Below, one piece after another: positions 196-21,405 of a stretch of DNA of 54,894 bases. A model generated the notes under the pieces. It had not been told where the DNA came from. It searched no databases and worked only from the letters and a program-made list of their open reading frames with translations. The position numbers and the translations under genes are program-made. Origin of the DNA: Nitrososphaerota archaeon (GTDB taxonomy: Archaea > Thermoproteota > Nitrososphaeria > Nitrososphaerales > Nitrosopumilaceae); the NCBI GenBank assembly GCA_021325615.1, contig JAJPGU010000016.1, forward strand, positions 1-54,894, given 5' to 3'. The first letter of the stretch is position 1; each line of letters starts with the position of its first letter.

Positions 196-1134
196 TTAAT
201 CCCCGTCCGCCTCAATGTCAAACTCCTTTCTCAGGCCCTGAATCCTGTTCCTGATGGTGACGGTGGTTATTCCGGCAGACTTGGCAATGTCAACCTGGGA
301 TTTTTTTTCCCCGTTTAGCACACATGATAGGAAAAGAACCGCCGCCGCCATGCTCATTGGGTTTTTTCCAGCCGATATGCCTATTTCGCTTATCCTTGTT
401 ATCATCTCAAAAGCTCCCCTCTTTGTCTTTTCACTTATTCCAACCTCGTTAGAAATCCTAGTGATGAACTCCGTTGAATCAAACGGCCGAAGCCTGAGGT
501 GGAGGTTCCCTATCAAAACGCGGTAGGTCCGGGAAAGCACCTTTCTCCGTATGTTTCCGGCATCGGCAATGTCGCGTAGGGTCCGCGGGGTGTCGCATTC
601 CCTGCACGCCGCATAAAGGGAGGCGCAGGCCATGGCATTTGAATTCCTCCCTTTTGTGAGTCTTGCAGCAAGGGCCTTCCTGTAGATGTATGCTGCCTCC
701 TCGATTACGGGGTCTGGTATCGAGAGCTTTATCCGAATCGAGTCAAAAATGGTAAGAGCCGGCACCAGGCTCCTGCTTATCCTTCTTGATTTGCTGTGCT
801 GGTCCCATTTGCGCAGCCGGTCAATGGTATTTTTCATGGCTCCCGACAATGGTTTTCCCGCGGCGTCGATGTTCTGGTTTCCTATGTTTGTAAATAACCC
901 CTTGTCGTGCATTGCAAGCGAGAACCCTCCGCCCGTCCTGCTCTTTGCCAAAAATTCCCCCATGCTGTATGATGCGCCCTCTTGTTCGCGGTCCTCGCCC
1001 CTCTCAATCAGGACCAGTCCGCAGCTCTCGCAGGCAACCTCGCCTGAGAAGACGTCTGTAACGAGGGGTCCCTTGTGGCATTTACGCTGGTCGCAGTTCT
1101 TGAAAATGTCTTCGTCGGGGGTTGGGTCTACTAT
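196..1134 (-). CDS. tfb: Transcription initiation factor B (TFB), non-canonical start
   Basis: TFB recruits RNA polymerase to TATA-bound TBP. The two cyclin-like repeats are clear (for example PDPVIEEAAYIYRKAL and SAGKNPMSMAAAVLFLSCV). The first ATG is at 963, which would remove the N-terminal zinc ribbon. However, the same frame continues upstream and encodes an intact ribbon: CDQRKC, then 15 residues, then CESC. No ATG, GTG or TTG occurs in frame before it. The next in-frame ATG (1173) is followed by CGC AAA and two TAA stops (1159-1164). A TATA-like stretch at about 1153-1165 predicts transcription starting near 1133, where in-frame ATA codons lie (1134, 1140). I place the start at ATA 1134 as the best guess, giving about 312 residues, compared with 336 for the second TFB here. 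The annotated start could also be put at 963 (255 aa). The TFB identity is secure; the start is inferred. Confidence 0.85.
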   Translation of the reverse strand: MVDPTPDEDIFKNCDQRKCHKGPLVTDVFSGEVACESCGLVLIERGEDREQEGASYSMGEFLAKSRTGGGFSLAMHDKGLFTNIGNQNIDAAGKPLSGAMKNTIDRLRKWDQHSKSRRISRSLVPALTIFDSIRIKLSIPDPVIEEAAYIYRKALAARLTKGRNSNAMACASLYAACRECDTPRTLRDIADAGNIRRKVLSRTYRVLIGNLHLRLRPFDSTEFITRISNEVGISEKTKRGAFEMITRISEIGISAGKNPMSMAAAVLFLSCVLNGEKKSQVDIAKSAGITTVTIRNRIQGLRKEFDIEADGD

Positions 1135-1245
1135 GTCTATATTTGGCCTTCGTTTTAATTATTATTTGCGCATGATTTCACACAATGGGAGGAGATGCCG
1201 CATGGGTCTTACGTATCAAAACGGCTGCAAAAATACTAAAGGGGC

Positions 1246-2373
1246 ATGACCAGTACAAAGACTAATGGGTTCCATCGCGAGAATGTGGAGTGTGGATATG
1301 GATTGAAAAGCCTTTATGGCATGCTTCCAGCCGAGATCGACGCAGTAGTTGGGGAAATGGGCCAGCCGCGTTACCGCGCAGACCAAATTCTTCACATGCT
1401 GTACAGTGAATTTCCAAGGGATGTGCTTTCTATGCGTCAGGTCCCGCTGGAATTTAGGGAATCACTTTCCGCCTCAGGGTACGGTATAGGGTCTGCAAGC
1501 GAGATACACCGGCTCGTAAGCGAAGACGGCTACACCACCAAGCTCCTGCTCAAACTTTTGGACGGGACGCTTGTGGAGACAGTCCTGATGCAATACAAGC
1601 CAAAGGGAGTGGCTCATCCAAGATCCACTGTCTGCGTATCCACCCAGGTCGGATGTCCAATGGGTTGCACGTTCTGTGCTACCGGCCAGATGGGATTCCA
1701 AAGGAACCTTATGGCAGAGGAGATTGTGGGCCAAGTGCTGCATTTTGCCTCACTCCTGCAAGAAAGGGGTGAACACGTAACAAACCTCGTTTTCATGGGG
1801 ATGGGCGAGCCCCTGGCAAACTATGCTGAGACCATCAGGGCAGTCAGGATACTAACGCATCCAAGAGCATTCGGTATCGGACAGAGGCACATCACGATTT
1901 CCACGGTCGGAGTAATGCAGGGAATAGAGCGGCTTGCGGATGAGGACCTTCAGGTAGGGCTTGCAATATCACTCCACGCACCAAACGACAGCCTCCGCCG
2001 AAGGCTCATTCCGACCGCAGGTGTAAACTCTGTAGGGGAAATAGTTGCGGCAACGCGCAGATACTTCAAAAAGACGGGCAGGCGCGTTACTCTCGAATAT
2101 GCCCTGCTTGAGGAAGTCAACGACTCGCCCGCGGATGCCGAGGAGCTTGCGAACTTGCTGAAGGGGAACGGGGCACACGTCAACCTCATCCCGGTGAACC
2201 CCACCGCAGGAAAATTCAGGCGCCCTTCGTGGAAGCGGGTTACCGCCTTTGAGCGCATACTGAAGGCAGCAGGAATAGGGTGTACCGTCAGGGTTGAAAA
2301 GGGGATTGAAATATCGGCCGCCTGCGGCCAGCTAAGGACGGACTTTACAGGGGGCCTAAAGGCCAAGAACTAG
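1246..2373 (+). CDS. rlmN: 23S rRNA/tRNA adenine C2-methyltransferase, RlmN family
   Basis: A radical-SAM methyltransferase of the RlmN/Cfr family, which methylates C2 of A2503 in 23S rRNA (and A37 of some tRNAs in bacteria). All hallmark residues are present: CPMGCTFC with cluster cysteines C137, C141 and C144, an upstream cysteine C130 in TVCVSTQVGC, and the C-terminal methyl-carrying cysteine C360 in SAACGQL. GMGEP (SAM binding) follows the cluster. The length, 375 aa, is normal for RlmN. It is divergent from the TFB gene, and a weak purine-rich AAAGGGG precedes the ATG. RlmN is mainly bacterial, so a transfer origin is possible. Cfr (C8) activity is less likely given the overall RlmN-like spacing. 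Confidence 0.93.
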   Translation: MTSTKTNGFHRENVECGYGLKSLYGMLPAEIDAVVGEMGQPRYRADQILHMLYSEFPRDVLSMRQVPLEFRESLSASGYGIGSASEIHRLVSEDGYTTKLLLKLLDGTLVETVLMQYKPKGVAHPRSTVCVSTQVGCPMGCTFCATGQMGFQRNLMAEEIVGQVLHFASLLQERGEHVTNLVFMGMGEPLANYAETIRAVRILTHPRAFGIGQRHITISTVGVMQGIERLADEDLQVGLAISLHAPNDSLRRRLIPTAGVNSVGEIVAATRRYFKKTGRRVTLEYALLEEVNDSPADAEELANLLKGNGAHVNLIPVNPTAGKFRRPSWKRVTAFERILKAAGIGCTVRVEKGIEISAACGQLRTDFTGGLKAKN

Positions 2374-19951: not shown

Positions 19952-20407
19952 GTGGTCAAAATCAAGGTAAGGATTAGGATAGACGCGCCAAGGGAAAGAA
20001 TATGGGAGTTTTTGGGCGATTCAAACAACGATCCATATTTCTGGAGGGGGATCACCTCGGTCAGGAACCTATCAAGGAATGGAAACGTCCTAATCCGTGA
20101 GGTCATTCTCGGGGATGACAACACGTGCACCCAGGCGGTGACCGTATGGCCCCCTGAAAAAATCCAGACACGCTGGGTGGGGGGCGTCATCGAAGGAACA
20201 CGGGAAATACTGCTAATATCGGTTGGAGCGTCCACCCTGCTCGAGATACACATCAATTATGAATTTCCAGGCCTAGGGCAGTCGGACTCTAAACTTCTTG
20301 CAAAGCTCTTCCAAAACGAGGCGGAGTTTGCAGCCGATCTCATAAAAAGGAAGGCTGAGGAATTCTACTCCGACTCGCAGCTGGAAAGGAAACTATGGGT
20401 GAACTGA
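19952..20407 (+). CDS. START/SRPBCC-domain protein, paralog of 38542-38958
   Basis: 151 residues with a START-like lipid- or ligand-binding fold: KIKVRIRIDAPRERIWEFLGD, NDPYFWRGITSVRNLSRNGN, VTVWPPEKIQTRW. It aligns along most of its length with the protein at 38542-38958. GTG 19952 gives an N-terminus exactly as long as that of the paralog (13 residues to DAP/NAP) and lies 27 bases after TATA-like AGATTTATG. The upstream ATGs would add residues unlike any START protein. Its stop overlaps the following TFB gene, so the two may be cotranscribed. Ligand unknown. Confidence 0.82.
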   Translation: MVKIKVRIRIDAPRERIWEFLGDSNNDPYFWRGITSVRNLSRNGNVLIREVILGDDNTCTQAVTVWPPEKIQTRWVGGVIEGTREILLISVGASTLLEIHINYEFPGLGQSDSKLLAKLFQNEAEFAADLIKRKAEEFYSDSQLERKLWVN

Positions 20408-21405
20408 TGGCCAAATCAAACAAGACCAAGCAAATGATGTACGGAGGACAAGGGGAGTATCCAAAATCCAAGAAATTGGATCCCTTTGACTCGGCGTCAC
20501 CAAAGTGTCCGAATGCCGGCTGCGAAGGAGCGCCCATAATTACGGATTCTTCTTCGGGAGAGATAATCTGTGGGTCGTGTGGCTACGTAATGGTGGAGAG
20601 GTCGGTCGACCCAAGTCCAGAACACGCCTCCGATGCCACCGAATTCATTACAAAAACAAGAAACGGCCCGGAGCAATCGCTTACAATGTATGATATGGGC
20701 ATGATGACGGTAATCTCCGACAAGGACGCGATGGGCCGTTCCCTTTCAAGTGACATGAAGAGCACTTTTGGCAGGCTTAAAGTGCTCAACAGCAGGAGCA
20801 GGATGGCATCATCAAACCGTACCCTGCGAGCTGCATTGTTTCTCCTCTATTCTCTAAAGACGAAGCTTGGCCTGCCAGATTCGGTGGCTGAAAATGCCGC
20901 CTACTTCTATCGAAAGGCGATGCAGAAAAAGATCACGATAGGGCGAAGTGCTAAAGGGATAATGTCAGCCTCCGTCTACCTTGCATGTAGGCAGACGGAC
21001 ATACCGCGCTCACTTGTAGACATATCAATCGCAGCAAGTGTAAGCAGAAAGGAGGTTAGCCGGGCCTACAGGAATCTGATCGAGAAACTCGAAATTTCGC
21101 TTGAACCCTGCAACCCGTCAGAATTTGTGACCAAGATTGCACACGAGGCGAAGATAAGCGAGAAAGCACAGAGGGACGCCTTGAAGATCCTGACCAATCT
21201 TGCAGAACAGGGAACATCTGCTGGAAAAAATCCAATGGCACTTGCCGCCGCCACCCTGTATCTCTCATGCGTGCTAAATGGTGAAAAAAAGACCCAGTCC
21301 GAGATAGCCAAGGCGTCCGGCATCACATCTGTGACTATTAGGAACAGGTGTGCGGCCCTGAAAAAAGAAATCAATTTCAAGCAGGCCCGCGACCAAAAGC
21401 CCTGA
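20395..21405 (+). CDS. tfb: Transcription initiation factor B (second TFB)
   Basis: 336 residues: a zinc ribbon (C38, C43, C59, C62; CPNAGC...CGSC), a B-finger/linker region (MYDMGMMTVISDKDAMGRSL), then two cyclin repeats (about 140-225 and 235-325; PDSVAENAAYFYRKAM and SAGKNPMALAAATLYLSC). It ends with the TITSVTIRNR helix-turn-helix that contacts BRE. It is clearly related to the TFB at 196-1134. The start is ATG 20395, overlapping the START gene by 13 bases, or ATG 20407, which forms a TGATG stop/start overlap. Two TFBs within 21 kb fit the expansion of these factors in this lineage. Confidence 0.93.
   Translation: MGELMAKSNKTKQMMYGGQGEYPKSKKLDPFDSASPKCPNAGCEGAPIITDSSSGEIICGSCGYVMVERSVDPSPEHASDATEFITKTRNGPEQSLTMYDMGMMTVISDKDAMGRSLSSDMKSTFGRLKVLNSRSRMASSNRTLRAALFLLYSLKTKLGLPDSVAENAAYFYRKAMQKKITIGRSAKGIMSASVYLACRQTDIPRSLVDISIAASVSRKEVSRAYRNLIEKLEISLEPCNPSEFVTKIAHEAKISEKAQRDALKILTNLAEQGTSAGKNPMALAAATLYLSCVLNGEKKTQSEIAKASGITSVTIRNRCAALKKEINFKQARDQKP

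Follow-up and report, generated by a model that had tools for sequence, protein, structure and literature searches.

A TFB gene of a Nitrosotalea-like archaeon with no canonical start codon before its zinc ribbon, and a candidate AUA start on a leaderless mRNA

In the window considered here (the whole stretch of 54,894 nucleotides, whose coordinates are used throughout), an acid-soil archaeon's gene for a general transcription factor of the TFB family raises the question of where translation can begin when no canonical start codon precedes the zinc ribbon of the protein. The open frame occupies positions 196–1158 of the minus strand (320 codons), and its first ATG, GTG or TTG (hereafter NTG) is the ATG at 961–963, i.e., codon 66, with the ribbon lying upstream of it. 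Neither an NTG nor a CTG precedes the ribbon in this frame, and from the TATA-like box to the first cysteine of the ribbon NTG is absent from all frames. An ATG at 1173 is cut off from the gene by two successive TAA stops (1164–1162 and 1161–1159). In both respects, the absence of an in-frame start ahead of the ribbon and the stops behind ATG 1173, the preliminary description of the locus had read the sequence correctly. A run of 65 codons free of NTG has a chance of about 0.02 at the codon frequencies of the genome, which is weak by itself and becomes significant because the lack is conserved in relatives. Thus, the missing canonical start before the TFB ribbon is a real and conserved anomaly.

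The protein and its host

The two TFIIB cyclin repeats (196–780, minus strand, limits approximate) match Pfam PF00382 with an E-value of 1.6e-32, and a phmmer search against the PDB recovers the archaeal TFB core (1ais/1d3u, E 6e-37), with human TFIIB also among the best solved relatives. For the zinc ribbon, CDQRKC...CESC (1021–1095, minus strand), the match to Pfam Zn_Ribbon_TF is weak (E 2.5e-4, below the curated cut-off), and an AlphaFold model (19 sequences) renders it as three strands at low confidence, the cyclin-fold part being predicted with fair to good confidence; all four zinc ligands are present in the pattern CX4C...CX2C. The likeness to archaeal TFB/TFIIB extends to the zinc ribbon, the linker, the two cyclin repeats and the occurrence of multiple paralogues per genome, and the best explanation of these sequence features is that the product is a TFB of full length, ribbon included, and one among several TFB paralogues of a Nitrosotalea-like archaeon. 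It departs from archaeal TFB/TFIIB in having no canonical start codon and in the first half of its ribbon, which is CX4C rather than CX2C, as in most of its own family. In the sister genes L016, L020, L010, L013 and L014, one cysteine of the first ribbon pair has been lost, which suggests that zinc binding may be relaxed in parts of the family. The window also contains another, divergent TFB paralogue (20359–21402, plus strand), which has ATG starts. The genomes of ammonia-oxidizing archaea carry 4–11 TFB copies, the expansion of these paralogues being documented in ammonia oxidizers (PMC7554672).

All close matches of the TFB fall in one genus, represented by 37 genomes and including Ca. Nitrosotalea (N. 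bavarica and N. devanaterra). The genome is therefore Nitrosotalea-like, and the placement in Nitrososphaera that had been proposed earlier was not borne out.

Translation of the ribbon and recurrence of the missing start

The closest orthologue (L007/L036/L151, genome G026) is 80% identical and syntenic: it lies beside the same divergently oriented radical-SAM methyltransferase gene (1240–2373, plus strand, in the window), which is 76% identical and adjacent in L036/L151 and whose name, RlmN-like, is read from its sequence. This orthologue is also without a usable start, and at the position of ATG 963 it has a TTG codon (within YDLGEF). The ATG at 963 is the first canonical start in the TFB frame, and the preliminary description had entertained a TFB that begins there and lacks the ribbon; under such a reading the ribbon codons would be a relic. 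Over the 56 codons from the proposed start to ATG 963, the window and L007 differ at synonymous sites with pS 0.685 and at nonsynonymous sites with pN 0.174 (Fisher P 1.4e-8); the comparison against L008 gives P 7e-8 and that of L016 with L020 gives P 0.01. By this pattern of substitutions, the codons upstream of ATG 963 are under purifying selection as protein, and ATG 963 is therefore not the true start. With the ribbon strongly conserved by selection and the ATG replaced by TTG in the closest orthologue, a start at 963 was excluded as a candidate, and we hold a ribbon-less TFB to be very improbable. The coding sequence, counted from the proposed ATA start, runs from 1134 to 196 on the minus strand (312 codons and a stop), as supported by the open frame, the Pfam TFIIB and PDB TFIIB matches, and purifying selection.

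Across the family, an NTG precedes the ribbon in 80 of the 84 TFB genes surveyed, the exceptions being the window gene, L016, L020 and L043. In two more, L007 and L008, the sole NTG before the ribbon is an in-frame GTG or TTG only 4–7 nt after the TATA-like box, which appears too near the box to fall inside a normal transcript and would lie upstream of the predicted transcript start. There are thus six genes without a start codon at the expected 5' end of the transcript, the other 78 having an NTG ahead of the ribbon. On a tree of the protein sequences, taken from the first cysteine of the ribbon on and with modest support at some deep forks, this state requires at least three changes and occupies at least three branches of the family; L043, which stands beside the ATG-bearing L038, is an independent case. 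The preliminary description had looked to related genomes for an intact in-frame start, and the answer is divided: the closest orthologue and four other genes are likewise without a usable start, whereas the sister clades do carry ATG, GTG or TTG.

This recurrence also bears on the quality of the data. The genome is a draft in 32 contigs, and an assembly or sequencing error might on that account be suspected; however, the missing start is repeated in the separately deposited assemblies JAJPKL01, DAHUYT01, JAGWFS01 and QYQE01 as well as in genome G005. Sequencing error was ruled out as the cause on the strength of these several assemblies with the same lack, and an error in this genome is, in our estimate, extremely improbable.

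A start located elsewhere, with a programmed frameshift or the excision of an mRNA intron joining it to the ribbon, would account for the gap in a different manner. The ATG at 1173 lies upstream of the gene, and thaumarchaea have a splicing endonuclease of the alpha2beta2 type, which occurs in archaea with many unusual tRNA introns (PMC4090602). Against both versions stand the absence of NTG in every frame between the box and the first cysteine in the window, on which ground a frameshift from an out-of-frame start was rejected, and the absence of a conserved upstream ATG in L007, L008, L016, L020 or L043; we consider this class of explanation very improbable.

Promoter spacing and the candidate start codons

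A putative TATA-like promoter element, AAATAATAATTA, lies at 1156–1167 on the minus strand (its AATTA ends at 1156); MAFFT, run unguided, brings it into register with GCAAATnAnTAATTA, which holds the AATTA box in the orthologues. Measured from where this box ends, with the box picked by eye for L038, L043 and L133 and the upstream box used for L014, the canonical starts of the family fall at 20–27 nt: ATG at 21–22 nt in L010, L013 and L014, at 20/23 nt in L038 and at 27 nt in L133, GTG at 26 nt in L015, and TTG at 25–26 nt in nine genes. All six genes without an NTG at this place have an in-frame ATA 20–26 nt after the box. In the window, ATA stands at 21 nt (1132–1134) and is directly followed by GTA at 24 nt (1129–1131), both on the minus strand; L007 has ATA at 22 and 25 nt, L008 has ATC at 22 and ATA at 25 nt, L043 has ATA at 20 and ACG at 23 nt, and L016 and L020 have ATA at 22 and GTA at 25 nt, or at 26 and 29 nt if the upstream of their two overlapping boxes is taken. 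In the unguided alignment, which covers the upstream regions, the ATA codons of the window, L007, L016, L020 and L043 share one column with the ATG codons of L010, L013, L014 and L038; in L008 the aligned column holds ATC, with ATA one codon later.

The spacing expected of a leaderless mRNA, 20–26 nt from the TATA box, is thus found for the ATA at 1134, which is the likeliest start codon. The preliminary description had pointed to ATA 1134 or 1140, and this gains support from the relatives, where ATA occupies the expected transcript start and the sister genes have ATG there. The upstream in-frame ATA (1138–1140, minus strand), at 15 nt, is nearer to the box than any canonical start of the family and appears the less likely of the two. 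In composition-preserving shuffles, an in-frame ATA at 20–26 nt arises in 5–16% of trials per gene, with a product of 4.5e-6 over five genes; since the offsets were bounded only once the data had been seen, and since the window gene and L007 are close kin, this product is to be read as support rather than as a formal probability. ATA is moreover a common codon in these genomes (2.8–3.4%), and an A/T-rich initiator sequence could favor ATA at the promoter for other reasons.

Several features speak against a start at this ATA. The GTG or TTG of L007 and L008 would serve if transcription began further upstream; GTA directly follows ATA in the window and in L016/L020; and the conserved Ile/Met/Val codon four before the first cysteine could itself initiate. 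An alternative has translation of the ribbon beginning at a different near-cognate codon, possibly behind a short leader: GTA 1131, ATA 1140 and an ATT four codons before the first cysteine are all present and in frame, and the last position is conserved as Ile, Met or Val and is ATG in many of the relatives that start with TTG. However, the column of ATA 1134 alone coincides with both the ATG of the sister genes and the usual TATA spacing, and we judge the use of another near-cognate codon to be unlikely, though deserving of some weight.

A further element of these upstream regions is a box, TTAGCTnnnCCTACTSC, which most members of the family (e.g., L007 and L012) carry some 40–45 nt ahead of the TATA-like box. 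The same box precedes a sufB-like gene (read by eye) in six genomes including this one (G000:C31:4790-4806; L282, L285, L287, L288 and L290), with one mismatch in G026, and it also stands before another small gene, in G013 and G032 (L281 and L291). We take it to resemble half of a DtxR/IdeR iron-regulator site, and control by iron or Fe-S status is a possibility for the family. Upstream of the window copy no recognizable instance of the box occurs.

A proposed AUA start on a leaderless mRNA, its precedents and its reach

The best and simplest reading, and probably the right one, is that of a leaderless TFB mRNA whose start has drifted to AUA several times. Under it, the promoter would place the 5' end of the transcript at or beside the in-frame ATA 1134, and the mRNA would therefore be leaderless; the initiator Met-tRNA would decode AUA as the first codon by a C-A mismatch at the third position. 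The ancestral start would have been an NTG at the same place, changed to AUA in several lineages of the family and then kept, presumably either because placement at the very 5' end makes AUA tolerable or because a weak start keeps the output of TFB low and adjustable.

The parallel with the leaderless mRNAs of Saccharolobus and haloarchaea lies in a start about 25 nt from the TATA box, with no room for a leader, and a GUG at the 5' end of a leaderless mRNA has been observed structurally (PMC11698992). The difference is in the codon: the archaeal starts named in reviews are limited to AUG, GUG and UUG, whether the mRNA is leadered or leaderless (PMC7531240), whereas AUA is what we infer for the window TFB. 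In the literature searched, no example of a natural archaeal AUA/ATA start was found, and an ATG-to-ATA start SNP in nadA is mentioned for an engineered Halobacterium strain. Bacterial infC, which encodes IF3, starts with AUU. Rare AUC, AUU and AUA starts are mentioned for bacteria (PMC9094748), and with these and infC the TFB would share a non-NTG start that is conserved in a gene for information processing, possibly with low or regulated initiation. Direct feedback of the infC type is not expected because TFB is not a translation initiation factor; in contrast to infC, the relevant factor would be aIF1, which is reported to discriminate against non-canonical starts (PMC8211752). A non-canonical start would thus be of a known kind, and a conserved AUA on a TFB an unusual variant of it.

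The generality of the phenomenon within the genome was gauged by comparing a 416 kb sample of it with 689 kb of G026, which yielded 224 genes with homologues; starts that have shifted by just a few codons would escape this approach. The TFB is the largest outlier among them, with a homologous stretch of 51 codons before its first NTG, and beside it only an ABC transporter ATPase and apgM stood out. The ATPase (L168:7633-8328(+), on G000:C16) has no NTG before its Walker A region and probably starts at a CTG that overlaps the stop of the upstream permease gene. The phosphoglycerate mutase-like apgM (L173:16546-17829(-), on G000:C21) lacks any NTG over its first 29 codons and has TTT where its relatives (L245–L273) have ATG; within the genus, species differ in having ATG, GTG, TTG, ATA or GTA at the upstream start position, a case that is no more than suggestive because a downstream ATG is usually present. 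A looser listing gave 41 pairs without a shared NTG near the boundary of conservation, most of which, when read by eye, appear to be artefacts of that boundary. AUA starts are thus not shown to be widespread in this genome. Among the tRNA genes typed in it there was no sign of an initiator tRNA that reads AUA. It has a tRNA-Met(CAU) and a tRNA-Ile with anticodon UAU and an apparent intron (L230:1501-1591(+), i.e., G000:C5:10548-10636), and elongation at AUA may therefore not depend on a modified CAU tRNA-Ile.

Whether the start has been retained for a function is a more tentative matter: it is possible, though we would not presume it, that in Nitrosotalea-type archaea a genuine, evolutionarily retained AUA start on a leaderless mRNA sets or regulates how much of one TFB paralogue is made. 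A TFB held at a low, adjustable level would fit with the expansion of TFBs and their condition-dependent use, the latter having been reported in biofilms (PMC12448741). If this holds, it would amount to start-codon-based control of a general transcription factor. Archaeal gene finders accept AUG, GUG and UUG as starts. If the AUA start is real, its recurrence in the gene of a general transcription factor would broaden the rules by which archaea initiate on leaderless mRNAs, and genes would be receiving annotations without their N-terminal domain. It would also make the sister species a natural system for direct tests of the cost and use of a weak start, since they carry AUG, GUG, UUG or AUA at, or next to, a single homologous start site.
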